In this document: positions 10,771 through 25,771 of the stretch, piece after piece
Layout of the letters: each line of letters starts with the position of its first letter
Position numbering within the stretch: position 1 is the first letter of the stretch
Source: Actinophytocola xanthii
Lineage (GTDB): Bacteria > Actinomycetota > Actinomycetes > Mycobacteriales > Pseudonocardiaceae
Direction: 5' to 3'
NCBI RefSeq assembly: GCF_001921205.1
Contig: NZ_MSIE01000081.1
Span: 1-42,673 of the forward strand
Length of the DNA stretch: 42,673 bases
Notes under the pieces: model-generated
What the model saw: only the letters and a program-made list of their open reading frames with translations
What the model was told of the DNA's origin: nothing
Database searches by the model: none
Position numbers and translations under genes: made by a program

Positions 10771-11625
10771 ATGCCTCGCCGTCTGCTCGTGTCCGCCGCA
10801 ACCGCCCTCGTCACCGCGCTGAGCCTCGCCTCCCCCGCCCAGGCGCAGGCCGAGCCGCTGAACTACGTCGCGCTCGGTGACTCCTACAGCGCGGCCTCCG
10901 GCGTCCTGCCGCCGGACCCCACCGCACCGCTGCTGTGCCTGCGCTCGGCCCGCAACTACCCGCACGTGATCGCCGCCGAGACCGGGGCCCGCCTGCGCGA
11001 CGTCACCTGCGGCGCCGCCGAGACCAGGCACTTCACCACCTCGCAGTATCCCGGCGTCGCCCCGCAGGTCGACGCGCTCGGTGCGGACACCGACCTGGTC
11101 ACGATGACCATCGGCGGCAACGACAGCGGCGTGTTCATCAACGCGATCCTCGCCTGCGGGCTGGCCGGCATCAGCACGCTCGGCCACGGCAGCCCGTGCG
11201 CCGACCGGTACGGCAGCAGCTTCGAGGACACCGTCCGCTCCACCACCTACCCCTCGCTGGTCACCGCCCTCGCAGCGGTGCGCGCCAGGGCGCCCCAGGC
11301 CGAGGTCGCCATCCTCGGCTACCCCTGGATCCTCCCCGCGACCGGCGGCTGCTTCGAGCGCATGCCCGTCGCCCGCGGCGACGTCCCCTACCTGCGCAGC
11401 CTCCAGTCCACCCTCAACGACGCCGTCCGCCGCGCCGCCGAGGCGAACGGGATCACCTACGTCGACCTGAGCCAGGCCTCCGAGGGTCACGACGCCTGCC
11501 AGCCGCTCGGCGTCCGCTGGATCGAACCGGTGCTCCAGACCACCAACCCCATCGTCGTCCACCCCAACGCCCTGGGCGAGGCAGCCATGGCCACCGAGAC
11601 GATGCGCGTCCTCGGCCTGTCCTGA
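10771..11625 (+). CDS. Secreted SGNH/GDSL-type esterase/lipase
   Basis: Of 284 residues, the signal peptide is about 1-27 (MPRRLL..., cleavage near AQA-AE). SGNH blocks are GDSYS with nucleophile Ser38, the block III motif GGND (115-118) and catalytic His264 in VHPNALG. Six or more cysteines (for example 56, 80, 129, 143, 194, 243) would make disulfides, as in Streptomyces secreted lipases of this group. The ATG at 10771 has GGAG 5 bases upstream and starts the signal peptide directly; upstream ATGs at 10753/10756 lack this. It would hydrolyse lipid or carbohydrate esters outside the cell; the exact substrate is unknown. Confidence 0.9.
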   Translation: MPRRLLVSAATALVTALSLASPAQAQAEPLNYVALGDSYSAASGVLPPDPTAPLLCLRSARNYPHVIAAETGARLRDVTCGAAETRHFTTSQYPGVAPQVDALGADTDLVTMTIGGNDSGVFINAILACGLAGISTLGHGSPCADRYGSSFEDTVRSTTYPSLVTALAAVRARAPQAEVAILGYPWILPATGGCFERMPVARGDVPYLRSLQSTLNDAVRRAAEANGITYVDLSQASEGHDACQPLGVRWIEPVLQTTNPIVVHPNALGEAAMATETMRVLGLS

Positions 11626-11631
11626 CAACCG

Positions 11632-13059
11632 CTACCGCGGGTCGGTCGAGCGGGCGAGGACCGACCTGCGGCGGCCGTAGGCGAAGTACACCACCAGGCC
11701 CAGCGCGAACCAGATGCCGAACCGCAGCCACGTCTCCGGGTGCAGGAACGTGATCAGCCAGATCGAGAAGACCACCCCGATGATCGGCACCACCGGCATC
11801 CCCGGGCAGCGGAACGTGCGGGGCAGGTCCGGCCGACGCCGACGGAGTACCACCACCGCGACGCACACGACGACAAACGCCAGCAGGATGCCGATGTTGG
11901 TCAGCTCCGCCGCCTCGCCGATCGGGAGCACGCCGGCCAGCACGGCCGAGGCCACGCCGACGATCCAGGTCATCCGGCTCGGCACCCTGCGGCGCTCGTC
12001 GGTGTGGGCGAACCAGCGGGGCAGCAGGCCGTCGCGGCTCATGGAGAAGCCGACCCTCGCCGCGCCCATCATGAACGTGAACAACACGGTCAGGATGCCG
12101 AGGATCGCGCCGACCGCGATCACCAGGCCCAGCCACTCCAGCCCCACCCTGGCGAACGCGTCCGAGAACGCCGCCTCGGCGTCGATCTCGGTGTAGTTGA
12201 CCATCCCGGTGAGCACGAGGCACGCCAGCACGTAGAGCACCATCGACACCGCGAGCGAGTACACGATCGCCCTGGGCATGTGCCGGGTCGAGTCGGTGGA
12301 CTCCTCGGCGGCGGTGGACATCGCGTCGTAGCCGAACACCGCGAAGAACACCGTCGCCGCGCCGGTGAACGCGCCGGCCAGGCCGAACGGGGCGAACGGG
12401 CTCCAGTTGCCGGCGTCGATGTGGAACACGCCGACCACGATCACCACCAGCACGACGGCGACCTTCAGGTAGACCAGCGACGTCTCGAACCGCGCCGCGT
12501 TGCGCATGCCCTGGTTGAGGATGAACGCGATGAGCAGGCACAGCAGCACCGCGAACAGGTTGACCACGTACGAGCCCGCCGGCACGCCCTCCGGCTCGGT
12601 GCCCGGGGCGCCCGACATCCACAGCGGCAGCTCGACGCCGAGGAAGCCGAGCAGGTCGTTGAAGTAGCCGGAGATGCCGATCGCCACCACGGCCACGATC
12701 GCGGTGTACTCCAACAGCAGGTCCCAGCCGATGAACCAGCCCACCACCTCCCCGAGCACGGCGTAGCCGTAGGTGTAGGCCGAGCCCGCCCTCGGGATGA
12801 GCCCGGCGAACTCGGCGTAGGAGAACGCCGCGGCGGCACTGGCCACACCGGCCACCAGGAACGAGATCACCACGGCCGGCCCCGCCGTCTCCTTGGCGAC
12901 CGCCCCGGCCAGCGAGAAGATGCCGGCGCCGATGATCCCGCCGACACCGATCGCCGTCAGCTGCCACAGGCCGAGCGTGCGGGCGAGGCCACCGCCCTCC
13001 ACCCGCTCGATGTCCTCGATGGGCTTGCGCCGGAAGATCTCGGCCGAGCGGCTGGCCAT
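11632..13059 (-). CDS. APC-superfamily amino acid permease (cationic amino acid transporter type)
   Basis: A 475-residue transporter with about 12 transmembrane segments. The N-terminal TAIGVGGIIGAGIFSLAG is the APC helix 1 substrate-binding signature. YAEFAGLIPRAGSAYTYGYAVLGE and FFAVFGYDAMSTAAEES are typical of the CAT/YfnA branch, which takes up basic or neutral amino acids by proton symport. It ends in a basic cytoplasmic tail. The neighbours give no pathway clue. Its stop is 6 bases from the convergent esterase stop. Confidence 0.92.
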   Translation of the reverse strand: MASRSAEIFRRKPIEDIERVEGGGLARTLGLWQLTAIGVGGIIGAGIFSLAGAVAKETAGPAVVISFLVAGVASAAAAFSYAEFAGLIPRAGSAYTYGYAVLGEVVGWFIGWDLLLEYTAIVAVVAIGISGYFNDLLGFLGVELPLWMSGAPGTEPEGVPAGSYVVNLFAVLLCLLIAFILNQGMRNAARFETSLVYLKVAVVLVVIVVGVFHIDAGNWSPFAPFGLAGAFTGAATVFFAVFGYDAMSTAAEESTDSTRHMPRAIVYSLAVSMVLYVLACLVLTGMVNYTEIDAEAAFSDAFARVGLEWLGLVIAVGAILGILTVLFTFMMGAARVGFSMSRDGLLPRWFAHTDERRRVPSRMTWIVGVASAVLAGVLPIGEAAELTNIGILLAFVVVCVAVVVLRRRRPDLPRTFRCPGMPVVPIIGVVFSIWLITFLHPETWLRFGIWFALGLVVYFAYGRRRSVLARSTDPR

Positions 13060-13134
13060 GGCGTCCTCGCTTTCGCGGTGCTACCGAGTTTCAGGTAGAC
13101 ATACCGCACTCCCGGCGCCGGGACCACCCTCCGC

Positions 13135-13461
13135 TCAGCAACCCACGTACCGCACCCCGATCGGCGGCAGGCCCCATCGGGCGAACACCTGCAGACACCT
13201 GCCCGCCGGCGGTCGGTCGGGGACGAACTCCATCACCACCCGGGCGAAGACCGGGCAACCGATGGCCGTCACCCACCCGGGCGCGACCGACGCGCACAGC
13301 GCGGTCAGCCCACCGGCGCCGGCGGCGTGCGCGACGGTGTGGATCCGCTCGGTGGTCCCCCGGTCGAACGTGTGCGCGGCCCGCGCCGCCTGGGCCTGCC
13401 CGGTCGTTCCCAGCACCACGGTCGCGACGACGACGAGCGCGACCCACAGCGTTCGTGACAT
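13135..13461 (-). CDS. Small secreted cysteine-containing protein, unknown
   Basis: A 108-residue protein with a clear signal peptide (MSRTLWVALVVVATVVLGTTGQAQA, cleavage near 25). The mature part is about 80 residues with four cysteines, one at the very C-terminus (YVGC), suggesting two disulfides. It contains a HTVAHAAGAGGL stretch and is otherwise not recognisable. A start at 13530 would put a charged extension before the signal peptide, so the ATG at 13461 is preferred although its ribosome binding site is weak. Confidence 0.6.
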   Translation of the reverse strand: MSRTLWVALVVVATVVLGTTGQAQAARAAHTFDRGTTERIHTVAHAAGAGGLTALCASVAPGWVTAIGCPVFARVVMEFVPDRPPAGRCLQVFARWGLPPIGVRYVGC

Positions 13462-13533
13462 ACCGCCATGGTCTCGCCACCGGAAGCGGGTGTCCAATCG
13501 AGAGTGTCGAGGCGGAAAGTTCCCTTTCATGGG

Positions 13534-14376
13534 TCAGCGCCACGCCGACACGGCACCCGCGGCGTACTCGGCGAAGCTCGTCTCGGGGCGGCCGGTCACG
13601 GCGGAGACGTCGTCGGTGACCGTGGCCATCGCGTTGCCGGTCACGGCGGCGACGTACAGGGCGGCGCCGTACGCGGCGAACGCCGGCGAGGCACCGGCGG
13701 CGACCAGACGCTCGCGCATAGCGTCCTCATCGGACTCCCGATAGCGCACATGGCGGTTCAGGGCACGGGAGATGTGCTCGGCGACCTCGGCGAGCGTGAG
13801 TGCCTCCGGCCCGGTCAGCGTGTACCCCCTGCCCTCGTGGCCGTTCTCGGTCAGTGCGGCGGCGGCCACCTCGGCGATGTCGTCTGTGGACACGTAGCCC
13901 ACCCTGGCCGTCCCGCCCGGCATGACGATCTCACCGCGGTCCCGGATCGTCTCGGCCATACCCGACCAGTGCCGTTCGGAGAAGTTCTGCATGAACGCGG
14001 CGGGGCGCAGGATCGTGGCGGGGACACCGGACTTCTCGACGAGGAGCTCCGTGCGGCGCAGCCCGTCGTCGTCCGGGGCCTGGTCGACGCCGAACGAGGA
14101 GAGCAGCACGACCCGGCGCGTTCCCACGCTTCCGGCGCAGTCGAGGAAAGCCCGTACCTGCTCGCTCGGGTCCGTCACCTCACCGGAGAGGTGGGCGTTG
14201 ACGAGGTAGACCGCCTCGACACCCGTCAGTGCGGGCTCGTAGGTGCTCTCGTCCCACCAGTCGAATCCCGGACGCGTGGCGGCGCGCACGGTGGCACCGC
14301 GCTCCACCAGCAGCGGCACGAGACGGCGGCCGGTCTTGCCGGTCGCGCCGGTCACCAGAACAGTGTTTCGGTCCAT
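13534..14376 (-). CDS. NmrA-type NAD(P)-binding oxidoreductase (atypical SDR)
   Basis: A 280-residue Rossmann protein. The nucleotide motif VLVTGATGKTGRRL (6-19) is followed by an NmrA/SDR-a5 body: SSFGVDQ, LRPAAFMQNFSE, YVSTDDIAEVAAAAL and GYTLTGPEALTLAEVAEHISRAL. Such proteins are NAD(P)H:quinone reductase-like enzymes or redox sensors. It is divergent from an AraC regulator that probably controls it. The substrate is unknown. Confidence 0.88.
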   Translation of the reverse strand: MDRNTVLVTGATGKTGRRLVPLLVERGATVRAATRPGFDWWDESTYEPALTGVEAVYLVNAHLSGEVTDPSEQVRAFLDCAGSVGTRRVVLLSSFGVDQAPDDDGLRRTELLVEKSGVPATILRPAAFMQNFSERHWSGMAETIRDRGEIVMPGGTARVGYVSTDDIAEVAAAALTENGHEGRGYTLTGPEALTLAEVAEHISRALNRHVRYRESDEDAMRERLVAAGASPAFAAYGAALYVAAVTGNAMATVTDDVSAVTGRPETSFAEYAAGAVSAWR

Positions 14377-14422
14377 GCCGCCGACCGTATGCCGACCGGG
14401 GCGAGACGATCCATGACAGCTC

Positions 14423-14444
14423 GGAACGAAGAAATACCCGTTCC
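14423..14444. promoter_or_regulatory. Inverted repeat between NmrA-type and AraC genes
   Basis: GGAACG (14423-14428) and CGTTCC (14439-14444) are separated by 10 bases, centred in the roughly 100-base divergent promoter region. It is a candidate AraC-protein site, with 6-bp arms only. Confidence 0.35.
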
Positions 14445-14474
14445 ACTCACGGGTTCGGGCGTACCGTGGGCGGA

Positions 14475-15443
14475 GTGAGCCGAACCGGCGTCACCGACAG
14501 CCGGCCCGACCTCGTCGCGGACATCGTCGCCGACGTCGTGGCCGCGACCCGGCACGGGAGCGTGGTCTACTCCAGGAACCGTTTCCACGCCCCGTGGGGC
14601 ATCCGGGTCCCGGCCGGCGCCATCGCCAGCTTCCACGTGGTCACCGACGGGCCGTGCTGGGTGGTCGCGGACGGGGACGAGCCGATCCCCCTCGCCCCGG
14701 GCGACGTGGCCCTGGTGCCCGCCGGGGTCGGCCATTCGATCGTGGACATCCCGGGCCGGGCGACCCTGTCCTTCGCCGAACTGATCGGTGGGCCGCTCGG
14801 CGAGGTCGAGACGCCGAAGGAGCTCGTGATCGACGGGGACGGTCCGGTCACCCGCCTGCTCTGCGCCGGCTTCCTGCTCGACTCCCGCCACCCGCTCATC
14901 GCCGTGCTCCCCCACGTCGTCCACGTCGGCGCCGAGCAGGCCGACCGAAGCGGTCTGGCCGCGGCCGTCGAGCTGCTCGCCGCCGAGGTCGACCGCGCCG
15001 ACCCCGGTGCCCGAGCGGTGATCGACTCCCTGGTGGACCTGCTCTTCGTCTACCTCCTGCGGGCATGGTTCACCGAACACGCGGGCGAGGGCTGGGCGCG
15101 CGCACTCCACGACCCGACGGTCGGCGGCGCCCTGGCACTGGTCCACCAGGACCCGGCCCGGCGGTGGACCGTCGCGGCGCTCGCCGACGCGGTCGCGGTG
15201 CCCCGCGCCACGTTCAGCCGGCGGTTCACCGCGCTCACCGGTCAGCCGCCCATGGCCTACGTCACCAGCTGGCGGATGACCGTCGCCGCCGACCTGCTGC
15301 GGGGCGAGGGCATGTCGCTGCGGGAGGTGGCCCGCCGGGTCGGGTACGACTCCGAGTTCGCCTTCGCCAGGGCTTTCAAACGCGCGGTGGGCCGTCCTCC
15401 CGGCCGCTACCGGCAGGCGTCATCCCGCCCCGCGCCCGGCTAG
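14475..15443 (+). CDS. AraC-family transcriptional regulator with cupin sensor domain
   Basis: A 322-residue regulator. The N-terminal cupin (about 10-105; PWGIRVPAGAIASFHVV, GDVALVPAGVGHSI) is of the AraC_binding/Cupin_6 type. The C-terminal double HTH (about 212-312) contains WTVAALADAVAVPRATFSRRFTALTG and the signature SLREVARRVGYDSEFAFARAFKRAVGRPPGRYR. The start is uncertain between GTG 14475 and GTG 14466 (three residues longer). The 3' end overlaps the convergent NarL-type regulator gene by 24 bases. The likely target is the divergent NmrA-type oxidoreductase. Confidence 0.9.
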   Translation: MSRTGVTDSRPDLVADIVADVVAATRHGSVVYSRNRFHAPWGIRVPAGAIASFHVVTDGPCWVVADGDEPIPLAPGDVALVPAGVGHSIVDIPGRATLSFAELIGGPLGEVETPKELVIDGDGPVTRLLCAGFLLDSRHPLIAVLPHVVHVGAEQADRSGLAAAVELLAAEVDRADPGARAVIDSLVDLLFVYLLRAWFTEHAGEGWARALHDPTVGGALALVHQDPARRWTVAALADAVAVPRATFSRRFTALTGQPPMAYVTSWRMTVAADLLRGEGMSLREVARRVGYDSEFAFARAFKRAVGRPPGRYRQASSRPAPG

Positions 15444-16058
15444 GAGCCCGCGTTCCAGGGCCGCGACGACCGCGGCCGTGCGGTCGCCGACGTCGAGCTT
15501 CGCGAAGATCCGCAGCAGGTGGGTCTTCACCGTGGCCTCGGTGATGAACAGCCGGGCACCGATCTCGGGGTTGGAGAGGCCGTCGGCGACCGCCCGCAGG
15601 ACGTCCACCTCGCGCGGGCTCAGCGTCACCGGTGCCGGCCCGCGCATCCGGGCCACGAGCCGAGCGGCGACGCTCGGCGCGAGCACGGTCTCGCCGCGTG
15701 CCGCGGCGCGGACGGCGCTGACGAGCTGGTCCCGTCCGGCGTCCTTGAGCAGGTAGCCGAGCGCGCCGGCGTCGACCGCGCGCGCGATCTCGCTGTCGGT
15801 GTCGTAGGTGGTGAGGATGAGGACCCTGGTCGCCGGGTGGTCAGCCACGATCCGTGCCGTCACGGCGACGCCGTCGAGAACCGGCATGCGCAGGTCGAGC
15901 ACGGCGACGTCCGGCCGGAGCCGCGCCACCAGCTCGAGCGCCTCGCGACCGTCGCCCGCCTCCCCCACGATCTCCAGGTGGGGCTCCGACCCGAGCAGGG
16001 CGACCACGCCCGCCCGCATGGCCGGGTGGTCGTCGGCGACGACGACGCGCACGCTCAC
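15420..16058 (-). CDS. NarL/FixJ-family response regulator
   Basis: A 212-residue regulator. The receiver domain (1-120) has D9/D10, phospho-acceptor Asp55 (VLDLRMP) and Lys near 105 (YLLKDA). The LuxR-type HTH (about 145-205) is LSPREVDVLRAVADGLSNPEIGARLFITEATVKTHLLRIFAKLDV. It is the last gene of the MMPL-kinase-regulator operon. Its GTG start overlaps the kinase stop (GTGA, 4 bases), so the two are translationally coupled. Confidence 0.93.
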   Translation of the reverse strand: MSVRVVVADDHPAMRAGVVALLGSEPHLEIVGEAGDGREALELVARLRPDVAVLDLRMPVLDGVAVTARIVADHPATRVLILTTYDTDSEIARAVDAGALGYLLKDAGRDQLVSAVRAAARGETVLAPSVAARLVARMRGPAPVTLSPREVDVLRAVADGLSNPEIGARLFITEATVKTHLLRIFAKLDVGDRTAAVVAALERGLLAGRGAG

Positions 16059-17164
16059 CGGCGCCCACCTTCCGCGACGGGAATCTCGGCCAGGACGCGG
16101 GTGCCGTCGCCGACCGAGCTGGTCACGGTGAGGTCGCCGCCGACCTCCGCGAGCCGCCTGCGCATGCCGTTGATGCCGAAGCCGCGCGCGTCGGCCAGGA
16201 CGAACCCGCCGCCGTCGTCGGTCACCTCGAGCTCGACGGCGTCCGGACGTCGGGCGAGCACGACCGTGACCGCCGACGCGCCCGCGTGCTTGCGCACGTT
16301 GGCCAGGGACTCCTGCGCACAGCGCAGCAACGCGCTCCGAAGGGGCGGGGCGGGGTCGAGGTCGACCAGGTCCGCCGTCACCGCGACGCCGGTGTCCTCG
16401 GCGAACCGGTCCAGGGCGCGCCGCAGCGACTGGGTGAGCGACCCGGGTGGTGCCGCGGGGGCCGAGGAGACCAGCACCCGGGCTTCGTCGAGGTTCTCAC
16501 GGGCGGTGGCCTCGATGGAGGCCAGGTGCCGGGCGCGCTGGTCCGGGTCGGCCGCGACCCGCGCCGCCTCCGCCAGTGCGGCGATCGAGGCGAACCCCTG
16601 GGCCAGGGTGTCGTGGATCTCCCGCGCCAACCGGTCCCGCTCCTGGGCGGCACCCTCACGGCGATGGGCCTGCGCGAGCTCCTGCTGGGTCCGCGCCAGC
16701 TCGTCGCCGAGCGCGTGGGTGCGCCGCTCGTTCTGGAGCCACCACAACCCGATCGGCACCGAGATCGCGGCGGCGCCGGCGGCCACCACGGCGTTGCCCG
16801 AGATCTCGCCCCCCGCGCGCACCAGCGCTCCCGCGACGACCGACACCGCCGCGGCGGCGCTGATGCCGACGGCCTGCCCCGGCGGGCGGGCGAACAGCCA
16901 GAACTGGGGCAGTGTCAGGACGAACAACGCGGCGCCGCCGCCCGGGAGGTAGGCCATCGCCCCCAGCGCGGGGACGAGCAGGACGAGGTAGGTCAGGCGG
17001 ATCGCGGGGTGGTCGGGCAGCAGGGTGACGAGCGCGTAGCCGACGCCCATCGCGCCGAGCACCGCGATCGAGGCGTACCGCTGCCCGCCGGTGTCGCCGA
17101 GCACCGCGACGAGGCCGGGACACAGTCCGAAGACCACCCAGACCAGGGCGTACCAGCCGCGCAT
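16055..17164 (-). CDS. NarL-type sensor histidine kinase (HisKA_3)
   Basis: A 369-residue kinase. Four to five N-terminal membrane segments (about 3-145) have no sizeable external domain. A coiled linker leads to HisKA_3 with LAREIHDTLAQGF (phospho-acceptor His184) and a HATPase with Asn289 (ESLANVRKHA) and DDGGGF. The ATG at 17164 lies 5 bases after the MMPL gene stop, and the frame upstream of it is only a shadow of the MMPL gene. It is coupled to the downstream regulator. Being cotranscribed with an RND-type exporter suggests sensing of a membrane-active compound (inference). Confidence 0.92.
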   Translation of the reverse strand: MRGWYALVWVVFGLCPGLVAVLGDTGGQRYASIAVLGAMGVGYALVTLLPDHPAIRLTYLVLLVPALGAMAYLPGGGAALFVLTLPQFWLFARPPGQAVGISAAAAVSVVAGALVRAGGEISGNAVVAAGAAAISVPIGLWWLQNERRTHALGDELARTQQELAQAHRREGAAQERDRLAREIHDTLAQGFASIAALAEAARVAADPDQRARHLASIEATARENLDEARVLVSSAPAAPPGSLTQSLRRALDRFAEDTGVAVTADLVDLDPAPPLRSALLRCAQESLANVRKHAGASAVTVVLARRPDAVELEVTDDGGGFVLADARGFGINGMRRRLAEVGGDLTVTSSVGDGTRVLAEIPVAEGGRR

Positions 17165-17169
17165 GCCGC

Positions 17170-19320
17170 TCAGCGTACGGTTTGCGGCTGTGCCGGGACG
17201 CGGGCGGCACGCACCCGTGCCGGCCACCACACCCGGTCGCCGAGCACCAGCATCAGCGCCGGCAGGATCAGCGTTCGGACGACGAAGGCGTCCAGCAGGA
17301 CGGCCACGGCGAGGCTGAAGCCGGTCTGCTTCATCTCGATGAGGTGCACCCCGACGAAGGCGGCGAACACCGTGACCATCACCACGGCCGCACCGGTGAT
17401 CACCGACGCGGACTGGCGCGTGCCGTCGAACACCGCCTGCCGGGTGGGAACCCCGTTCAGCACCCCCTCGCGGATCCGGCTGATCAGGAAGACCTGGTAG
17501 TCCATCGAGAGTCCGAACAGGATCACGAACAGAAACAGCGGAACCCGCGACCCGATCGACCCGGTCGAGGTGAAGCCGAGCAGCCCTTCCGCCCACCGCC
17601 CCTGGAACACCCAGGTCAGCACGCCGATCGCGGCGGCGGCCGAGAGCAGGTTGAGGACGACCCCGACCACCCCGAGGACCACCGACCGGAACGCCCAGGC
17701 GGTCAGCACCAACGTCACGAGCAGCAGCGCCCCCACGACCCACGGCAGGCGTTCCCGCTGGTGCCGGGGATAGTCGACGTGGCGTGCGACATCCCCGCTG
17801 ACCGCGTACTCCAGGCCCGCGGCCGCACCGAGGGTGGCCGGCACGTACTCCTCCCGCAGACGTCGCAGGGACTCCTGGGCCTCCTGTTCGCCGACGAAGT
17901 GCGGCACCGCGAGGTCCAGGACGTGGGTGCGCCCGTCCCGCGAGGTGCGCACCGTGGCCGGCTCGCTGATCGCGGGATCGGCCAGCGCCAGCTCGCGCAG
18001 CTCGCCGAGCGCCTCCCCCGCCCCGGCCCCGCCGTCGCGGACGACCACCTGGTGCAGGGCCTTCACCTCCGGGTACGCGCCGGTCAGCCGATCGAAGGTG
18101 CGCATCGCCGCCAGCTCGCGCGGATGGGTCTCCGGGCCCATGTCGGTGATCCGCATCCCCAGGACCGGCGCGGCCAGGGCCAGCATCACCAGCGTCGTGC
18201 CGACCAGCGTCAGGCCCGGCCGCCGGCCGACGCCGCGCATCAACGCCGCACCGAACCGGCTCTCCCTCGGCGTGCTCACCGGCCGCTTCCGTCGCTGCGC
18301 CCGGCGTTCCGCCGCGGCACCGAGCTTGGCCAGCGCCGCGGGCAGCACCGTCATCGAGCTGACCACGGCGACCAGCGTGACCAGGACGGCACCGGTGGCG
18401 AGCGAGGAGAAGATGACGTCGTCGACGAGGTAGAGGGTGGCGCTGGAGACGGCCACGGCGAGCCCGGACAGCACGACGGCGCGCCCGGAGGTGGCCGCGG
18501 CGAGGTCGACGAACGCGGCGGCCGGCAGTCGCCCGTCCGCCCGCGCGCGCTCCTCGCGCTCCCGTTTGAGGTAGAAGAGGCTGTAGTCGACGCCGACCGC
18601 CATGCCGATCAGCAGGATGACGTTCATCCCGACACCGGCGTCGGGGAAGACGTGCGAGACGACCATCGACAGCCCGATCGAGGCGGCGATGGCCGACAGC
18701 GCCAGCAGGACCGGCACCAGCGCCAGGCGCAGCGACCGGAACATCAGCAGCAACGTGAGCAGCGTGATCGGCAGCGTGATCATCTCGGCACGGGCGATGT
18801 CCTGCCCGCGCTGCTCCTCCACGGCCCGCCCGATCGACGCGCGCCCGGTCTGCTCGACCACGACGTCGGGATGGTCCTTCGCCACCGCCTCGGTCCGCGC
18901 GCGGAGCTCCTCGACCACCTGCGCGGCCGCACGCTCCTCGACCTCCAGCGTCACGTCGACGCGGAGCGCGTTCCCGTCCTCCGCCCGGACCGGCTCGCCC
19001 ACGGCCGCGACGACGGGCAACGCCGACATACGCTCGGCCACGTCCCGCGCGGCGGCCGCCGCGGCGCGCTGGTCCAGTTCCGCGCCGTCGACGGCCGTGA
19101 CGAGCACGTGCTCCACCGGCCGCCGGTGAAGCCCGCCCTCGGCGGCGATCGTCTCGGCCCGCCCCGCCTCCCCCACCCGGTAGTCCGCGGTGACGGCGGA
19201 GTTGTTGCCGACAATGAGCCCCACGCCGAGGCACACGGCGACAAGGAGGAACCAGCCCCCGATCGCACGCCAGGGATGGTGGGCGCTCCAACGGGCGAGG
19301 CGCACAGGCAGGTTCGTCAT
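17170..19320 (-). CDS. MMPL/RND-family membrane transporter
   Basis: A 716-residue RND-superfamily protein of the actinobacterial MMPL type with internal duplication. Each half has one TM helix, a large external loop and a cluster of TM helices. The first membrane helix is about 20-39, with the long loop to about 170. Helices around ITLPITLLTLLLMFRSLRLALVPVLLA and VGVDYSLFYLKREREER follow, then the repeat with FGLSMDYQVFLISRIREG. The paired GVDY / GLSMDY acidic residues fit proton coupling. Such proteins export lipids or toxic hydrophobic compounds. It has no obvious ribosome binding site at the ATG. It heads the operon with a NarL-type two-component system. Confidence 0.92.
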   Translation of the reverse strand: MTNLPVRLARWSAHHPWRAIGGWFLLVAVCLGVGLIVGNNSAVTADYRVGEAGRAETIAAEGGLHRRPVEHVLVTAVDGAELDQRAAAAAARDVAERMSALPVVAAVGEPVRAEDGNALRVDVTLEVEERAAAQVVEELRARTEAVAKDHPDVVVEQTGRASIGRAVEEQRGQDIARAEMITLPITLLTLLLMFRSLRLALVPVLLALSAIAASIGLSMVVSHVFPDAGVGMNVILLIGMAVGVDYSLFYLKREREERARADGRLPAAAFVDLAAATSGRAVVLSGLAVAVSSATLYLVDDVIFSSLATGAVLVTLVAVVSSMTVLPAALAKLGAAAERRAQRRKRPVSTPRESRFGAALMRGVGRRPGLTLVGTTLVMLALAAPVLGMRITDMGPETHPRELAAMRTFDRLTGAYPEVKALHQVVVRDGGAGAGEALGELRELALADPAISEPATVRTSRDGRTHVLDLAVPHFVGEQEAQESLRRLREEYVPATLGAAAGLEYAVSGDVARHVDYPRHQRERLPWVVGALLLVTLVLTAWAFRSVVLGVVGVVLNLLSAAAAIGVLTWVFQGRWAEGLLGFTSTGSIGSRVPLFLFVILFGLSMDYQVFLISRIREGVLNGVPTRQAVFDGTRQSASVITGAAVVMVTVFAAFVGVHLIEMKQTGFSLAVAVLLDAFVVRTLILPALMLVLGDRVWWPARVRAARVPAQPQTVR

Positions 19321-19365
19321 GACAGGCAGACTCGCGCCGAGCGGCCCCCGCCCGACACGGGCGAC

Positions 19366-19388
19366 CGACCGACACCGCGTGTCGGTCG
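19366..19388. promoter_or_regulatory. Inverted repeat with 10-bp arms upstream of MMPL operon
   Basis: Arms CGACCGACAC (19366-19375) and GTGTCGGTCG (19379-19388) are separated by CGC, about 46 bases before the MMPL start. They are directly followed by a tandem pair of the palindrome GGTCGACC (19384-19391 and 19392-19399, the first overlapping the arm). The dyad symmetry without a T-run favours an operator for the transporter operon. Confidence 0.55.
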
Positions 19389-19401
19389 ACCGGTCGACCC
19401 G

Positions 19402-19432
19402 CGGGCGGCCACGGGTCCGCTATGGCCGCCCG
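19402..19432 (-). terminator. Hairpin downstream of amidinotransferase gene
   Basis: The stem CGGGCGGCC / GGCCGCCCG (9 bp, 13-base loop) begins 17 bases after the amidinotransferase stop. There is no T tract, as is common for actinobacterial hairpin terminators. It would end the biosynthetic operon before the MMPL operon. Confidence 0.5.
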
Positions 19433-19448
19433 GGCAACCCGCGGCGGG

Positions 19449-20540
19449 TCAGGTGAGGTAGTCCTCGGGGCCGCCGTCGCGGGTGATGTCCAGGGTCACG
19501 CAGTGGAAGCCGCCGCCGAGGACCTGGGAGTGGCGCAGGCGTAGCGGCAGGACGTCGATGCCGTGCCGGTCGAGGGCGGCGATGAGCTCGGGCTGCTCGC
19601 GGTCGACGACGGCGTGCCCGGGGTCGACCATGAGCAGGTTCATGCCGATCCACACCTCGCTCAGCGTGTGGCCGTGAACGCTCGGCTGTGGCCGCAGCGG
19701 CGGGCACCACAGGACGTCCCACCCCTTCAGCGGCTCGGGGACGGTCTCGGGGCGCACGCGGCTGGGGTTGAGCAGGACCAGGCCGGGACGCAGCAACGAG
19801 ATCGTGCTGTCGATGTGGGTGTAGCCGTACACGTCGCGCAGCGGGTGCACGCGGAGGTCGGGATCGACCAGGCGCAGGGTGGACTCCAGCCACAGCCGGC
19901 CAGCCTCGTTGCCGCTGCGGGAGACCTGGTACAGCACGTCCCTGCCCAGGCGCAGCACGTTGGCTGCGTCGAAGACGGGCTCCGCCTCGCCCAGCTGCGG
20001 CAGCCCGTCCTCGTCCAGGGGGAACAGGTCGTCGGCCAGGCGGGGCCGGGGGGCGGCCAGCCAGTGGGCCCCGGAGCGCAGGCACTCCTGGAGCAGTGGG
20101 CGCAGGCCGAACAGCTCGAAGTACCGGGCGCGGGTGGCGCTGGGCGTCTCGATGATCGTCGAGCCGACCACCAGCGTGAGGTCGCGCGGACAGAACGAGC
20201 TCATGCCGGCGCTGCGCCAGTCGGGCGTCCCGAACTCCACGCCGTGGTCGGGCGCGGGTGGCTGGTGCACGGTGATCCCCAGGCCACGCAGGGTTGAGGC
20301 CAGCTCGCCGAGGTCCTCGTTCGCCTCGTCGACGATGTGCTGGGGCACCCGGCCCACCGCCACGTCGGCCAGCTCCCGTGTGGACAGCTTGGGATAACAC
20401 GTGAGCCAGGCCGACAGGTCGGCCTGTTCCGGGATGCGCGTGTACGACGCGTCGCCGACGACGATCTCGCGCAGGGTGGTGAACTCGTCCCACGAGTTCA
20501 CCACCGGGCGGTGGGGGCCGGTCACCTGCGGTGTTGTCAC
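19449..20540 (-). CDS. L-arginine:amine amidinotransferase (GATM/StrB1 family)
   Basis: A 363-residue member of the glycine/inosamine amidinotransferase family, which moves the amidino group of arginine to an amine through a Cys-bound intermediate. The catalytic set is visible with family spacing: Asp191 (VFDAANVLRLG), His242 (GYTHIDSTISLL) and Cys347 (LGGGFHCVTLDI). Distances of 51 and 105 residues are close to those in human AGAT. I chose GTG 20540 (AAAGG 8-11 bases upstream) because the family body starts at once. It is the last gene of the ketomemicin-like operon, where an amidinotransferase is expected to make an N-alpha-amidino amino acid (arginine in ketomemicins). The acceptor here is not shown by sequence. 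Confidence 0.92.
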   Translation of the reverse strand: MTTPQVTGPHRPVVNSWDEFTTLREIVVGDASYTRIPEQADLSAWLTCYPKLSTRELADVAVGRVPQHIVDEANEDLGELASTLRGLGITVHQPPAPDHGVEFGTPDWRSAGMSSFCPRDLTLVVGSTIIETPSATRARYFELFGLRPLLQECLRSGAHWLAAPRPRLADDLFPLDEDGLPQLGEAEPVFDAANVLRLGRDVLYQVSRSGNEAGRLWLESTLRLVDPDLRVHPLRDVYGYTHIDSTISLLRPGLVLLNPSRVRPETVPEPLKGWDVLWCPPLRPQPSVHGHTLSEVWIGMNLLMVDPGHAVVDREQPELIAALDRHGIDVLPLRLRHSQVLGGGFHCVTLDITRDGGPEDYLT

Positions 20541-20566
20541 GTCGTCAGCCTTTCGTCGAGAGGGGT

Positions 20567-21109
20567 TCAGTAGCCGGCGGCCTCGTGGCCGTCGTTGGCC
20601 CGGGTGGGCACCAGGAAGCTGCGGTCGAAGGTGAGCACCACCTCGCCGGTGTCCTTCCTGCCGGTCGTCCGGCAACTCACCACCCCGTCACCGGGGCGGC
20701 TCGCGGAGAGGCGTTTCGCGGTGATCTCGCTCTCCGCGTAGAGCGTGTCCCCGACGAACACCGGGTTGGGCAGGCGAATGCGGTCCCACCCGAGGTTCGC
20801 CACCGCCCGCCCGCTGGTACTGCGCGCGGTCATCCCGCCGACGATGCTCAGCGTGACCAGGCTGGACACCAGCGTTCTGCCCCACTGCCCGCGCGCGCAG
20901 TAGGCGGCGTCGATGTGCAGCGGTGACGCGTTCATGCTGAGCATGCTCATCATCACGTTGTCGAGCTCGGTGACCGTCCTACCAGGACGGTGCTCGACGG
21001 TCATGCCCACTACGAGCTCCTCGTAGCAGAAGCCGACCGTCTCCCGGTACCGGTCGGGCCCGACCCGCCGGTACCCGGAGGGACCGTCCTGCCGCCCGTC
21101 GTCCAGCAT
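20567..21109 (-). CDS. MaoC-type dehydratase, mesaconyl-CoA-hydratase subgroup
   Basis: A 180-residue hotdog-fold hydratase. The active-site block reads SMNASPLHIDAAYC (58-71), with His65 and Asp67. The usual D-x-N-P-x-H of R-hydratases is replaced by an MNxxPLHxD pattern, as in mesaconyl-CoA / beta-methylmalyl-CoA dehydratases. This fits dehydration of a 2-substituted malyl-CoA made by the CoA lyase of the same operon. The ATG at 21109 has GGGGGAG with a 5-base spacer; the GTG at 21115 has no space for one. It lies 17 bases after the synthase stop and 26 bases before the amidinotransferase. Confidence 0.85.
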   Translation of the reverse strand: MLDDGRQDGPSGYRRVGPDRYRETVGFCYEELVVGMTVEHRPGRTVTELDNVMMSMLSMNASPLHIDAAYCARGQWGRTLVSSLVTLSIVGGMTARSTSGRAVANLGWDRIRLPNPVFVGDTLYAESEITAKRLSASRPGDGVVSCRTTGRKDTGEVVLTFDRSFLVPTRANDGHEAAGY

Positions 21110-21126
21110 CCCCACTCCCCCGGTCC

Positions 21127-22356
21127 TCAGACGGCCGCCGTGAGCTCCTCGACGTGCCCGGCGAAGGTGGCCAGCTGCTCGCGGCTCAGGTCGGCGCGGA
21201 TCATGATGCGGATGCCGGCCTCGCCTCGGGGCACGATCGGGAAGAACACCGCCGAGCTGTAGAAGCCGCGCCGGTACAACTCCGCCGACAGCTGGATCGC
21301 CCGCTCGGGTTCCCCCACGGTGATCCGTCGGACGGGCAGGCCGTTGCCGGCGAACGAGGTCGGCAGGAGCTCGTCGAAGTAGTCCACGTTGGACCGCAGC
21401 TTCTCCTGCAGCTCGCCCAGCTCCGCTGACCGGTGGATCGCCGCGCTGGCCAGGGACGCGCCGACGAGCGGCACCGCCATGTTCTGCGACCAGCCGACCG
21501 GGCCGGCGTGCCGGGCGAGGAACTCCGCGATGGCGCGACTGCCGACCATCGCCACGCCGCCCCCGGTACCGAAACCCTTGCCCAGGCTGGTGACGATCAC
21601 CGTGAGCGGGTTCGCCGGCAGCCGTGACCGGACGAACCCCTGGCCTCGGTCGCCCATGATGGACAGGGAGTGCGAGTCGTCGATGAACAGGAACAGCCCG
21701 TACCGCTCCTGGAGGTCACGCAGGCCCTCCAGTGCGGCGGCGCCACCCATCGAGTACGCCCCGTCGGCGACGTAGGCGACGCTGGGGTACTTGCGGCACA
21801 CGTCCTCCAGGTAGTCCAGGTCGTTGTGGCCGCAGGTGAGCACCAGGCTCTCCTCCGCGCAGATCGGCTTGACGTAGTTCATGCAGAAGTGGCAGTGCCG
21901 GTCGAAGACCATGACCCGGGGACCCCCGGGAGCGAGGTGGCCGGAGGCCACCAGCGGCAGGATGCCCGCGGTCACCGCGCTGCAGGACGTGCCCGGCAGC
22001 ACCGGCGTGCCGAACAGGTCCGCCAGCTCCTCCTCGAGCTGGGCGAGGAGGTTGTGCCGGATCCGGGTGGTGGAGGTGACCAGCCAGGTCGTGCCGGCGT
22101 CGCGCAGCGCCCGCACCGCGCCCTCGATCACCGCGGGGTGGTGGTTGAGCCCGAGGTAGGCGCACGAGCACATGTTGGCGAACTCGTGCCCGGTCTCCCG
22201 CACCACGAGCCGGTTGTTGGACTCGGCGTCGACCCGGATGCCGATCAGCCCGTGGTCGGCCGCCGCCTGCCAGACCGGGTCGGACATCTGGATCATCTTC
22301 TCGCCGTTGCGGTAGCGGCGCGGTCCCTCGACCTGTTGGGGGTCGGTGCGGGTCAT
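21127..22356 (-). CDS. PLP-dependent alpha-oxoamine synthase (glycine C-acyltransferase type)
   Basis: A 409-residue fold-type I enzyme of the KBL/AONS/serine-palmitoyltransferase family, which condenses an acyl-CoA with an amino acid with loss of CO2. The PLP lysine is Lys260 in TSLGKGFGTGGG. DDSHS (Asp227, His229) binds the cofactor, His154/His156 in DRHCHF would stack on it, and DGAYSMGG (198-205) is the usual ES(V/Y)FSMDGD-like segment. The ATG overlaps the CoA-lyase stop (ATGA), with AAAGG 7 bases upstream. In the ketomemicin scheme this enzyme joins a substituted succinyl-CoA to glycine, making the ketomethylene pseudodipeptide. Confidence 0.92.
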   Translation of the reverse strand: MTRTDPQQVEGPRRYRNGEKMIQMSDPVWQAAADHGLIGIRVDAESNNRLVVRETGHEFANMCSCAYLGLNHHPAVIEGAVRALRDAGTTWLVTSTTRIRHNLLAQLEEELADLFGTPVLPGTSCSAVTAGILPLVASGHLAPGGPRVMVFDRHCHFCMNYVKPICAEESLVLTCGHNDLDYLEDVCRKYPSVAYVADGAYSMGGAAALEGLRDLQERYGLFLFIDDSHSLSIMGDRGQGFVRSRLPANPLTVIVTSLGKGFGTGGGVAMVGSRAIAEFLARHAGPVGWSQNMAVPLVGASLASAAIHRSAELGELQEKLRSNVDYFDELLPTSFAGNGLPVRRITVGEPERAIQLSAELYRRGFYSSAVFFPIVPRGEAGIRIMIRADLSREQLATFAGHVEELTAAV

Positions 22357-23270
22357 GTCGTGCCTTTCGTCGGCGCCTGCAGGTGGTTCTCGCCTTGGCC
22401 GGGAGTGCCCGGTGGGGACCGGCGGCCCGGCTCGCCCGGCGGCCCGAACTCCTCGAGCAGGCGCCGGGAGGCCTCGAAGAACGGACGGCCCACCATGGCG
22501 CCGTCCACGGTGGTGATGCCAAGGCCGCTGCGCCGGCCCGCGGCGACGACCCGGTGGGCGAGCTCCAGCCGGGCGGCGTCGGGCGAGAAGACCTCGTTGA
22601 TCACGGGGACCTGGTCCGGGTGGAGCGCGATCTTTCCGCTGAACCCGAGGCTCACCGCGAGCACCGACTCGTGCCGCAGCAGGCCCTGGTCGGCCAGCTC
22701 GAAGGTGGGCGAGTCGATGGCGTGGACGCCGGCGGCCAGCGCGGCGTTGACCACTCTCGCCCTGGCGTAGCTGAGCGGCTCCCAGGCCAGGTCGATGCCC
22801 ATCGCCAGGGCGTAGTCGGCCGAGCCGAAGATGACCGCGCGCAGCCCGGGTGAGCCGGCCGCGATCGCCTCGACCCGCTCCACCCCGAGCGGCGTCTCGA
22901 CCACGGCGAACAGCTCGGGTCGCGGGCCGAGCACCCGATGCACGATCTCCACGTCGCGTGGCGACTCCACCTTGGGGACCAGCACGACCTCCGGCGGTGT
23001 CCGGTAGTCCCGCAGGGCGAGCAGGTCGCGCAGGCCGTCCGGTTCGCTCACCGCGTTGATCCGCACCGCGCACCGCACCGGCGCCTCGCCCGCCGCGGCG
23101 AGGAGGAGGAAGTCCTCCGCTCGGCGACGGGCGTCCTCCTTGTGCGGCAGGGGCACCGAGTCCTCCAGGTCGACCAGGCAGATGTCCGCGCCGGAGCGGT
23201 GGCAGCGGGCGTAGCGCTCGGTGGCCGTGGCCGGGGTGCACAGCATCGACCGGCAGTAGCGGGTGTACAC
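22353..23270 (-). CDS. HpcH/HpaI-family CoA aldolase (malyl-CoA/citrate lyase type)
   Basis: A 305-residue TIM-barrel enzyme of the citrate-lyase-beta / malyl-CoA-lyase group. Motifs are RSMLCTPA at the N-terminus (7-14), the acidic DLEDSVP (34-40), RINA (70-73), VPKVESP, the metal ligand Glu125 in VVETPLGVE, and FGSADYALAMG with Asp152. These enzymes make or cleave beta-hydroxyacyl-CoAs from an acetyl-type CoA and an alpha-keto acid. The GTG at 23270 lies one base after the reductase stop. In the proposed pathway it performs the first carbon-carbon bond formation. The last about 35 residues are a low-complexity tail. Confidence 0.9.
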   Translation of the reverse strand: MYTRYCRSMLCTPATATERYARCHRSGADICLVDLEDSVPLPHKEDARRRAEDFLLLAAAGEAPVRCAVRINAVSEPDGLRDLLALRDYRTPPEVVLVPKVESPRDVEIVHRVLGPRPELFAVVETPLGVERVEAIAAGSPGLRAVIFGSADYALAMGIDLAWEPLSYARARVVNAALAAGVHAIDSPTFELADQGLLRHESVLAVSLGFSGKIALHPDQVPVINEVFSPDAARLELAHRVVAAGRRSGLGITTVDGAMVGRPFFEASRRLLEEFGPPGEPGRRSPPGTPGQGENHLQAPTKGTT

Positions 23271-23271
23271 G

Positions 23272-24228
23272 TCAGCTCTCCCGGTTCACGTCGATCAGGA
23301 CCTTGCCGACCGTGGCCCGGGCGGCCACCGCGGCATGAGCCCCGCCGACCTCGGCCAGTGCGACCACCCGGTCGATGTGCGCGGCCAGCCGGCCGCGCGC
23401 GGCCAGCCCGAACAGCTCCTCGGCGATGCCACACAGCAGCGCGCGGTCGTCCACCACGTGCCGCATCCAGAAACCGGCGCAGCCGATGGAACCCTCGGCC
23501 AGCTCGCCGGTGGAGACCTGGATGGTGCCCCTGTCCCGCCAGCCGAGGCACACCAGCCGGCCGAACGGGGCCAGCCCGCCAAGCGCGGCGCGGGCCAGCG
23601 CTCCCCCGACCGAGTCGACGAACACGTCGACGCCGCGGCCCCCGGTCGCCGCGCGCAGCCGGCCGGCGAGGTCCTCGGCGTCCGGCGCCAGCACGTGGTG
23701 GGCGCCCAGGGCGGCGACGAACGCGCGTTTGTCCGGTGTGGACGCGATGCCGACGACCGGGTGGGCGCCCAGGGCGAGCGCCAGCTGGACCGCGAGGTGG
23801 CCGACGCCGCCCGCCGCGGCGGACACCGCGACACCGTCGCCGGGGCGCAGCCGCCCGGCCAGCACCAGGGCACCGTGCGCGGTGCATCCCTGTTCGAGCA
23901 GCCCGACCGCCTGCTCGTCGTCGAGGTGGTCGGGGACCTCGACGCAGTGCGCGTCGGCGGCCGCGGCGACCTGGGCGTACCCGCCTCCCCGGCGCAGCAG
24001 CGCGGCGACCCGGCGCCCGTCGCCGCGGCGGCGGCCGACCGCGTCCACCCCCAGCACAGCCGGCAGTGGCTGGGGCGTGTCGCCCTGTCGCCGTTCCAGG
24101 TCGTCGAAGTTGACCCCGGCGACGGTGACGTCGACCAGGCTCTCCCCGGCCGCGGGCACCGGTTCCGGCACGTCCTCCACCCGCAGCACGTCGGGCCCGC
24201 CGGGCCGCCGCATCACCACCGCCCTCAT
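23272..24228 (-). CDS. Medium-chain dehydrogenase/reductase (quinone oxidoreductase / enoyl reductase type)
   Basis: A 318-residue zinc-free MDR protein. It begins MRAVVMRRPGGPDVLRVEDVPEP, and the NADPH fold is VSAAAGGVGHLAVQLALALGA (135-155). The QOR-type tail ends VGKVLIDVN. No catalytic or structural zinc ligands are present. The ATG overlaps the ATP-grasp stop by one base (TGATG). In the operon it would reduce the double bond left by the MaoC-type dehydratase, giving a substituted succinyl-CoA (inference from pathway logic). Confidence 0.88.
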   Translation of the reverse strand: MRAVVMRRPGGPDVLRVEDVPEPVPAAGESLVDVTVAGVNFDDLERRQGDTPQPLPAVLGVDAVGRRRGDGRRVAALLRRGGGYAQVAAAADAHCVEVPDHLDDEQAVGLLEQGCTAHGALVLAGRLRPGDGVAVSAAAGGVGHLAVQLALALGAHPVVGIASTPDKRAFVAALGAHHVLAPDAEDLAGRLRAATGGRGVDVFVDSVGGALARAALGGLAPFGRLVCLGWRDRGTIQVSTGELAEGSIGCAGFWMRHVVDDRALLCGIAEELFGLAARGRLAAHIDRVVALAEVGGAHAAVAARATVGKVLIDVNRES

Positions 24229-25586
24229 CAGACAGTCCGTCCTGGACGGTCGACCGCCACGCCGACCTCGGCGAACAGCCCCTCCACCCGGTGCGCGGCA
24301 GCCCGGGCTGCGGTCAGATCGCGGGCCAGGACGCAGTAGGTGAGGGTGTCGTCCGGCATCAACCCGGAGATGAGGACGACCCCGGTCGAGGTGTCGGCGT
24401 CGTACCCGAGCCCGGCGAGGTCGAGGCGCTCGCGTGCGGCCAGGAACGACGGCGCCGCCCAGCCGCTGCGCTCCAGCAGCACCCGGTTCGCCCGGTGGGC
24501 GTCGGCCACCAGGTGGGCCCGGACGGCGATGTGCAGGTGAGTGGAGCCGCTGACCCGCCCGTTGGTCTCGGTGAAGACGATCTCGCCGGCGGGGGTGAGC
24601 ACGGCGTCGGTGCTCAGGAAGCCGCGGTAGCCCATCGCCGCGAACGAGCGGCAGAGCCGACGGCCGGCGGTCTCCAGCACCTCGGCCGCGGCCGCGCTGA
24701 GCCCCTGGGCCGGGACGACCTCGCCGACGGCGACCGGCTCCATCAGGATCTCCCCGGTGCCCAGCAGCTCGTCGGAGCCGTCGCCGACGAGGTACTCGCC
24801 ATAGACGGTGTCGCAGCCGAGCAGGTACCGCTCCACGACCAGCCGGTGGCGGCCATCGTCGCTGAGCCAGTCCCACCGCCGCGCCAGGTACTCCTCGACC
24901 GCCGCGGCGTCGGGCAGGGTCACCACGCGCGGGGCGCCGGCCGCACGGACCTCGCCGGCAGGGCTGAGGATCTCGTTGCCGAAGCCACCGCCGGCGAACT
25001 CCTGTTTGAGCATCACGCAGTGGCCGGCGGTCAGCTGCTCGGTGATCGCCGCCGCCGCGTCCTCGACCCGGGAGACGACGCGGCCAGGCGCGATCGGCAC
25101 GTCGGCACCCGTGGCGACCGCGCGGAACACGGCCTTGCTGTTGACCAGCGCGTCACCGCCCTGGGCACTGAACCCCAGCCCCGGAACGGCGGATCCCAGG
25201 CCGACGGCGCGGGCGAACTCGGCGATGGCCACGTCCTTGTAGACGGCGAGGAGGTGGTCGACGCCGTTCTCGCGCACCGCCGCGCCGACCGCGGCGCGGA
25301 ACGCCGGGTCGGCCAACCGGTCCGGGGTCAGCAGCTCCGCGCCGAGTCGACCCGGCGGTGGGACCAGCAGGGTCAGCGAGCTCGGGTCGACCCGGGTGAG
25401 GTCGGCGACGTAGGCCAGGTAATCAGTGTCGGGCGGCTGCGGCAGGACGACGACATCGCCGGTGCCGGCGAACCAGAGGACGCGCTGGGCCGCACACCCG
25501 CCCGCGCGCCGCTCGTCGGGGCTGAGCGCGGCCAGGTCCCCCACCATCTCCTCGGTCCGGCTGTTGCCGACGACCAGGGCGGTCAC
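24228..25586 (-). CDS. PGM1-like ATP-grasp peptide ligase
   Basis: A 452-residue ATP-grasp protein with a pre-ATP-grasp N-terminal region (1-140; begins MTALVVGNSRTEEMVGDLA). The ATP-grasp core has the ATP lysine Lys194 (VMLKQEF), glycine loop AGGGFGNE (198-205), VVERYLLG (250-257) and the metal-binding TETNGRVSGSTHLH (339-352; Glu340, Asn342). A distinct C-terminal domain is present. This matches the pheganomycin ligase PGM1 family, which joins nonproteinogenic amino acids to peptides. The GTG at 25586 overlaps the stop of the small upstream gene (GTGA). It probably joins the ketomethylene pseudodipeptide to an amidinated amino acid. Confidence 0.88.
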   Translation of the reverse strand: MTALVVGNSRTEEMVGDLAALSPDERRAGGCAAQRVLWFAGTGDVVVLPQPPDTDYLAYVADLTRVDPSSLTLLVPPPGRLGAELLTPDRLADPAFRAAVGAAVRENGVDHLLAVYKDVAIAEFARAVGLGSAVPGLGFSAQGGDALVNSKAVFRAVATGADVPIAPGRVVSRVEDAAAAITEQLTAGHCVMLKQEFAGGGFGNEILSPAGEVRAAGAPRVVTLPDAAAVEEYLARRWDWLSDDGRHRLVVERYLLGCDTVYGEYLVGDGSDELLGTGEILMEPVAVGEVVPAQGLSAAAAEVLETAGRRLCRSFAAMGYRGFLSTDAVLTPAGEIVFTETNGRVSGSTHLHIAVRAHLVADAHRANRVLLERSGWAAPSFLAARERLDLAGLGYDADTSTGVVLISGLMPDDTLTYCVLARDLTAARAAAHRVEGLFAEVGVAVDRPGRTV

Positions 25587-25771
25587 GGCGCGACCACCCG
25601 GCGCGCCGCCAACCGTCCGCCGCACCACGAGAAACGCACCACGAATTCCTCCCCCGTCGCCAGCGAGACGTCCTCGGGAAACGGCACCCAGCCTGCACCC
25701 AGTGGGTTCTCCCGGTTTTCCGGTGAATTCCCGAAGAACACTCCGGCGGCCAACTCGAGCTCGAACCGCAC
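25583..25771 (-). CDS. Small protein (62 aa) coupled to the ATP-grasp ligase
   Basis: From GTG 25771 to the TGA at 25583 there are 62 codons with GC-rich third positions. GGGGAAG lies 6 bases before the start, and the stop overlaps the ligase start in GTGA, so the frame is probably translated. The sequence (VRFELELAAGVFFGNSP..., ...GWVPFPEDVSLATGEEFVVRFSW) has a beta-strand pattern. It faintly resembles the C-terminal barrel edge of PRMT-like methyltransferases, so it could be a domain remnant. The frame stays open upstream to 26056, but the codons there are AT-rich and unlike coding sequence. No function is assigned; a ligase partner, precursor or accessory peptide is possible. Confidence 0.45.
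   Translation of the reverse strand: MRFELELAAGVFFGNSPENRENPLGAGWVPFPEDVSLATGEEFVVRFSWCGGRLAARRVVAP

Follow-up and report, generated by a model that had tools for sequence, protein, structure and literature searches.

A probable complete operon for ketomemicin (ktm) biosynthesis, with the Micromonospora layout, in Actinophytocola xanthii

The stretch of DNA analysed here (the window, 42,673 nucleotides) is one whole contig, NZ_MSIE01000081.1, of the Actinophytocola xanthii assembly GCF_001921205.1 (Pseudonocardiaceae). Six enzyme genes, considered below as a ketomemicin (ktm) biosynthetic operon, and a leading open reading frame (ORF) of 62 codons occupy positions 19449–25771 of its minus strand, with a largest gap of 26 bases. 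Families were assigned through sequence searches of Pfam, NCBIfam and the PDB, and the letters A–F were given to the genes after the naming in PMC11943689. In the order of transcription, the genes read 62-codon ORF, ktmD, ktmF, ktmA, ktmB, ktmC and ktmE (Table 1), at intergenic spacings of −4, −1, 1, −4, 11 and 26 bases; the seven minus-strand genes with overlaps or gaps of at most 26 bases that a first-pass annotation of this DNA had described were thus recovered. All six enzyme ORFs are of full length, closely packed and devoid of TTA codons. Their GC content at third codon positions (GC3) is 0.93–0.96, and that of the 62-codon ORF is 0.81. The GTG start of ktmD at 25586 is supported by the resulting N-terminus, which aligns with the N-termini of Micromonospora ligases.

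Table 1. Genes of the putative ktm operon in transcription order, and the transporter gene next to it
Feature	Coordinates	Strand	Length and basis
62-codon ORF	25583–25771	−	62 aa; GTGA overlap with ktmD
ktmD, PGM1-type ATP-grasp peptide ligase	24228–25586	−	452 aa; Pfam, PDB, homology
ktmF, MDR-family enoyl reductase	23272–24228	−	318 aa; Pfam, homology
ktmA, HpcH/HpaI (malyl-CoA-lyase type) aldolase	22353–23270	−	305 aa; Pfam, homology
ktmB, PLP-dependent alpha-oxoamine synthase (acyltransferase)	21127–22356	−	409 aa; Pfam, homology
ktmC, MaoC / mesaconyl-CoA-hydratase type dehydratase	20567–21115	−	182 aa; Pfam, homology
ktmE, subfamily I amidinotransferase	19449–20540	−	363 aa; PDB match StrB1, homology
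MMPL transporter	17170–19320	−	downstream of ktmE

Five of the enzymes were assigned to families by Pfam: KtmD (PF18604 PreAtp-grasp, 101.3 bits at a cut-off of 27.5, and PF18105 PGM1_C, 41.3 bits at a cut-off of 22.5), KtmF (ADH_N/ADH_zinc_N, the latter with 88 bits), KtmA (HpcH_HpaI, 117 bits), KtmB (Aminotran_1_2, 60 bits) and KtmC (MaoC_dehydratas, 69 bits, and the mesaconyl-CoA hydratase model MC_hydratase, 57 bits). With both domains above their Pfam cut-offs, KtmD is predicted to be a PGM1-type ATP-grasp ligase; the pheganomycin ligase PGM1 (3wvq), a member of the same family, was matched over residues 27–441 with 323 bits in the PDB sequence search. Pheganomycin combines a guanidinoacetic acid unit with a ribosomal peptide. 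For KtmF, NCBIfam returned quinone_pig3 with 180 bits, which is under that model's own cut-off. KtmE gave no match in Pfam and NCBIfam searches at E 0.001; in the PDB search its best match was 1bwd (316 bits), with GATM entries at 179–186 bits, and its catalytic D/H/C motifs align with those of the PDB amidinotransferases. The 1bwd entry names its molecule inosamine-phosphate amidinotransferase, the enzyme StrB1 of streptomycin biosynthesis. Its acceptor is an inosamine phosphate, whereas KtmE would be expected to use an amino acid.

Genome contigs were scanned with aligned oxoamine synthase sequences, which yielded 105 relatives; the best 80 loci were kept, four further loci were added, and the resulting 84 loci were searched with all seven window proteins (tblastn, E 1e-4). 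Three of these, L030, L037 and L070, overlap and come from one Lentzea contig. All six enzyme genes were present in 18 of the 84 loci: five had the order and strand of the window (L027, L046, L047, L050 and L052), five were ordered A-B-C-D-E-F, five, from Streptomyces/Kitasatospora, had a separate E and an F-D pair convergent on A-B-C, and three, from Salinispora, had ktmE upstream and reversed. Co-location by chance is excluded, because the full set recurs in 18 loci, five times with the gene order and strand of the window. In PMC11943689, a ktm cluster comprises an aldolase, a PLP-dependent C-acyltransferase, a dehydratase, an ATP-grasp ligase, an amidinotransferase and a dehydrogenase, and four layouts are given for 28 non-Salinispora Actinomycetota with ktm homologues. 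Predicted counterparts of all six activities are found in the window.

One of the five loci with matching order is the cluster of Micromonospora sp. ATCC 39149 (L050), the heterologous expression of which led to ketomemicin A (PMC11943689). Like the window, it has the six genes as D-F-A-B-C-E on a single strand, at identities of 53% (D), 71% (F), 68% (A), 82% (B), 80% (C) and 71% (E), and its KtmE belongs to the same subfamily (I); the 62-codon ORF before ktmD, in contrast, is a feature of the window, and the two hosts probably belong to different families. Besides the ktm genes, no called gene of L050 matched a called gene of the window. The Salinispora clusters (L048, L049 and L101; ketomemicin C) share the core order D-F-A-B-C and, in S. 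pacifica, a KtmB of 82% identity, but their KtmE (40%) belongs to the other subfamily, lies upstream and has the opposite orientation. The same six genes in the same order on the same strand were also found in the genome G172 and in the Pseudonocardiales metagenome-assembled genome (MAG) BP_201 (L027 and L052), which are the nearest to the window in the trees described below, although their KtmE, at 38–39% identity, is again of the other subfamily. As gene content, order and phylogeny agree, the window operon is very probably (about 0.9) a complete ktm operon with the ATCC 39149 layout, and the ketomemicin-type operon proposed in the first-pass annotation is borne out by homology and synteny with a validated cluster. 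It adds a new member to the known ketomemicin family and opens no new one.

Two kinds of evidence weigh against this assignment. Of the six enzymes, KtmD has the lowest identity to its ATCC 39149 counterpart (53%), a point taken up below, and the top NCBIfam match of KtmA is RipC (218 bits), that of KtmC RipB (188 bits). The best PDB match of KtmA, 3qll, is labelled citrate lyase in the search table and is presumably RipC. Such matches would fit a Rip-type catabolic operon for itaconate or C5-dicarboxylate degradation, to which the remaining genes are adjacent by chance. The scores are, however, far under the curated NCBIfam thresholds of 375 bits for RipC and 340 bits for RipB, so that RipABC itaconate degradation is not indicated, and the same genes stand beside the oxoamine synthase, ligase and amidinotransferase in the 18 six-gene loci, including the validated ketomemicin cluster. 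A catabolic operon is therefore held to be highly improbable.

For the assignment to the ktm family, the active sites were compared in 40 of the 84 loci, from which rows (tblastn aligned stretches with X at stops) of less than 70% of the query length or of at most 60 bits had been dropped; the counts include the window as one row and one Lentzea place twice, and columns were taken from KtmA, KtmB, KtmC and KtmD. The catalytic roles of the individual residues are assumed from the respective enzyme families. Invariant were R70, E125 and D152 of KtmA (38/38 rows), K260, D227, H229 and H156 of KtmB (39/39), N62 and H67 of KtmC (39/39), and K194, D327, E340 and N342 of KtmD (24/24). Some variation was seen at H217 (37/38) and D256 (33/38) of KtmA and at T339 (13/24) and T341 (18/24) of KtmD. 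The dyad of KtmC is Asn62/His67, compared with Asp/His in ordinary MaoC hydratases; because Asn also replaces Asp in the second domain of two aligned mesaconyl/beta-methylmalyl-CoA-type entries, Asn62 is regarded as a trait of this MaoC type and not as a lesion. The principal active-site positions predicted for these enzymes, and for KtmE by alignment, are conserved. The earlier claim of intact catalytic residues holds for the six enzymes, with an Asn/His instead of an Asp/His dyad in the MaoC protein, and does not extend to the 62-codon ORF, which has no Pfam match; the alignment of aldolase and ligase active sites, suggested at that time as a check, gave the conserved positions listed above for KtmA and KtmD.

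The 62-codon ORF has a coding-like GC content by codon position of 70/52/81%, and the 238 bases upstream of it (55% GC) are non-coding in appearance. Its Pfam search was empty even at E 10, and tblastn at E 1e-4 gave no match in the 84 ktm-related loci. A search of genomes returned a match at E 2.1e-4; the ORF aligns, with 33% over 55 amino acids, with residues 343–397 of a 409-residue methyltransferase of G172, which has a PRMT_C domain at 269–388 and is encoded on a different contig from the G172 ktm genes. At E 0.01, matches occurred in 4 of 150 genomes, namely that of the window, G172 and, more weakly, G174 and G175, and no methyltransferase was among the genes called at the latter two places. 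A PRMT-like enzyme has an S-adenosylmethionine-binding domain and a C-terminal barrel, of which the alignment covers no more than the last part of the C-terminal domain. What is left here is probably the 3′ end of a gene for a PRMT-like methyltransferase, and it now perhaps serves only as a translational coupler into ktmD. A role as a new ktm component was considered and set aside as first choice, because the ORF was not detected in any of the 84 loci at E 1e-4 and its closest relative lies in the C-terminal part of a methyltransferase; the small protein that had been counted among the operon's components is probably not a ktm gene.

This probable remnant is also one of two points in favour of a genuine ktm cluster that is silent or decayed in this strain and gives no product; the other is that, among Salinispora strains with the full set, 54 of 79 had no detectable product and 25 were positive (PMC11943689). 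Against it stand the six intact enzyme ORFs with their conserved active sites and high GC3, and we consider silence or decay unlikely.

The KtmE sequences fall into two subfamilies (22 rows): ten are of type I, including the window and the genome G061, and twelve are of type II. With the window KtmE as query, the nine other type I rows scored 510–572 bits and the twelve type II rows 164–196 bits, the identity to KtmE of S. pacifica, G172 and the MAG being 38–40%. Since the same query reaches 316 bits with StrB1, type I stands closer to StrB1 than to the type II enzymes; a Salinispora KtmE scored 178 bits against StrB1. By these comparisons, type I and type II KtmE are not simple orthologues.

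A core tree was built from A, B, C and F of 19 clusters, i.e. the 18 six-gene loci and the window; loci lacking E or any of A, B, C and F were left out (e.g. L051, which is partial, L054 and L065). In this tree, G172 and the Pseudonocardiales MAG, both of type II, are the sister of the window (98/96), and this trio is sister to Micromonospora (type I) and Salinispora (type II). By a plain count on the tree, KtmE type requires at least three changes over the 19 clusters. By plain identity, the core of the window is closest to M. rosaria (77%). One possible direction of change is that an older type I KtmE was retained in the window. Single-gene trees, from the 40 loci used for the residue counts, were quick searches without bootstrap; the KtmD tree groups the window with G172 and the MAG (SH-aLRT 99), as the core does, and in the KtmB tree the placement of the window within a 13-row clade was not settled.

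Taken together, this could mean that KtmE is an exchangeable module, with distant subfamilies swapped at least three times while core and ligase were co-inherited, that KtmE and not the ligase sets the N-cap, and that the window is a mosaic; we put this forward tentatively and with more doubt than conviction. If true, the window would combine the core and ligase of Pseudonocardiales with a KtmE resembling StrB1. Were each subfamily to serve one kind of cap, a link drawn from two cases (Salinispora and Micromonospora), the ligase would have to cope with several kinds; that of the window would then accept more than one amidino acid, giving an amidino-arginine-type analogue from a lineage equipped for another cap. 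KtmD columns were compared in three contrasts (three Micromonospora and three Salinispora; the window and G172 plus the MAG; five and five Streptomyces/Kitasatospora/Actinacidiphila), with zero shared residues required per contrast and G061 left out. One column differed in all three, non-convergently, and none tracked the cap. Under this strict test, the outcome for reading the cap type from ligase residues is negative, as no KtmD column followed KtmE type.

Two further places with type I amidinotransferases were observed. In the same genome as the window, a second one with 63% identity lies in a cluster distinct from ktm (L132, G000:C151:16000-35900, 9238–10353, minus strand), next to PALP, ornithine-cyclodeaminase-like, TauD, AMP-binding and glutamate-synthase-like genes and one with a match to a LanB-type N-terminal domain; the PALP and ornithine-cyclodeaminase-like genes are presumably SbnA/SbnB-like. 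In G061, a ligase–amidinotransferase pair (L028, G061:C1, 7955–10428) has 53% and 69% identity to KtmD and KtmE, and the ketomethylene genes were not found within the 19.5 kb read.

Relatives of KtmB at E 1e-60 occur in 22 of 390 Pseudonocardiaceae genomes, the window's own included, and were absent from the five genus mates listed (G001–G005). Six other genomes of the family with a KtmB of 65–69% were inspected: five have A-B-C, in four of these five together with F, and none of the five has D or E within the 19.9 kb read. In Lentzea xinjiangensis, A, B, C and F are accompanied by two ligases of 48–49% identity at distances of about 7 and 20 kb, E not being found in the stretches read, and G255 (KtmB 48%) has A-B-C with a distant F, D and E not being found. 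The window holds the only full six-gene set found in the 390 genomes, a minority of the 41–48% KtmB relatives having been inspected.

Partial cassettes were also seen elsewhere. In L069, L071, L074–L083, L085 and L088, from Pyxidicoccus, Comamonas sp. KCTC 72670, Dyella, Corallococcus, Archangium and a Myxococcaceae MAG, A-B-C (KtmB 61–64% to the window) is followed by a distant reductase (26–31%), and neither KtmD nor KtmE was found in the locus at the thresholds used. The cassette of L083 is followed by genes for an aminoacyl-tRNA editing domain protein, a carrier protein, a class III aminotransferase, a thioesterase, a ketosynthase and an AMP-binding protein; in Dyella (L075:8602-9933), an arginine-deiminase-family protein is encoded between the ktmA- and ktmB-like genes, and a CmlA-type diiron hydroxylase after the cassette. 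The search beyond Salinispora in PMC11943689 reports Actinomycetota. An F-A-B-C cassette without KtmD or KtmE is present in L148–L151 and in L068 (Actinokineospora globicatena, 8167–21222; the same place as L149). In L068, the one locus in which the megasynthase was read, genes for an MFS transporter and a polyketide synthase/nonribosomal peptide synthetase (PKS/NRPS; KS-AT, luciferase-like monooxygenase, C-A, carrier domains) come after the cassette; there, a ketomethylene unit may feed an assembly line.

Such A-B-C cassettes beside PKS/NRPS-type genes in other bacteria, the occurrence of D and E alone of the six in G061, the paralogue of KtmE in a StrB1-like group with other uses and the 53% identity of KtmD to ATCC 39149 would all suit a ketomethylene pseudopeptide outside the strict ketomemicins, made with another ligase partner or with an amidinotransferase that caps a non-proteinogenic acceptor. 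All six ktm genes are nevertheless present in conserved order, and KtmD tracks the core tree of the ktm clusters; a product of that kind is thought to be quite unlikely, and the ketomemicin assignment is retained.

Genes for the MMPL transporter, a histidine kinase and a LuxR-type response regulator (15420–19320, minus strand) lie immediately 3′ of ktmE. Neither a terminator-like nor a promoter-like site was found in the 128-base gap between ktmE and the MMPL gene, which speaks against a separation. On the other side, the gap contains dyad-symmetric DNA, the MMPL transporter had no match at E 1e-5 among the called genes of seven ktm or D+E loci, and its inclusion in the operon, together with the two-component system, is not supported. 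Two Micromonospora clusters have a gene of about 366 codons right after ktmE (L046:12937-14034 and L047:12943-14043); the L046 copy has no Pfam match, and no relative was found among the called proteins of the window.

The route proposed for the ktm operon was built from the enzyme names in PMC11943689 and general knowledge of the families, and all substrates in this strain are predicted. KtmA would join an aryl pyruvate (phenylpyruvate or 4-hydroxyphenylpyruvate) and an acyl-CoA to a substituted malyl-CoA, which dehydration by KtmC and reduction by KtmF would convert to an arylmethyl-succinyl-CoA; decarboxylative Claisen condensation with an amino acid by KtmB would give a ketomethylene pseudodipeptide. 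KtmE, with arginine as amidino donor, would amidinate a free amino acid at its alpha-amino group, and KtmD would link this amidino acid to the pseudodipeptide in an ATP-driven step, yielding an N-amidino pseudotripeptide. The amidinated partner of the Micromonospora (ATCC 39149) ligase is amidino-arginine; as KtmE of the window belongs to the ATCC 39149 subfamily, amidino-arginine is a weak best guess for the cap in this strain.

According to PMC11943689, ketomemicin C structures resemble Val/Ile/Leu-Leu-[COCH2]-Phe, the isolated ketomemicin C-418 corresponding approximately to Val-Leu-Phe with a ketomethylene, and the guanidine of Salinispora ketomemicins sits on Val, Ile or Leu. The amino acid used by KtmB therefore bears a side chain (leucine in ketomemicin C), and the condensation with glycine assumed in the first-pass annotation is to be replaced; likewise, N-alpha-amidino-arginine does not hold as a general cap, and the accompanying caution that keto acid and amidinated partner might differ was apt. 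In the arphamenines and ketomemicins covered by that paper, the ketomethylene is always paired with a C-terminal Phe- or Tyr-derived residue, and its authors knew of no natural ketomethylene pseudopeptides besides these two families (PMC11943689).

Ketomethylene pseudopeptides are leads for protease inhibitors, and its diverged ligase and subfamily I amidinotransferase make the Pseudonocardiaceae cluster a good candidate for new analogues. With the window cluster one could, moreover, test in a simple natural setting whether KtmE by itself picks the N-cap.

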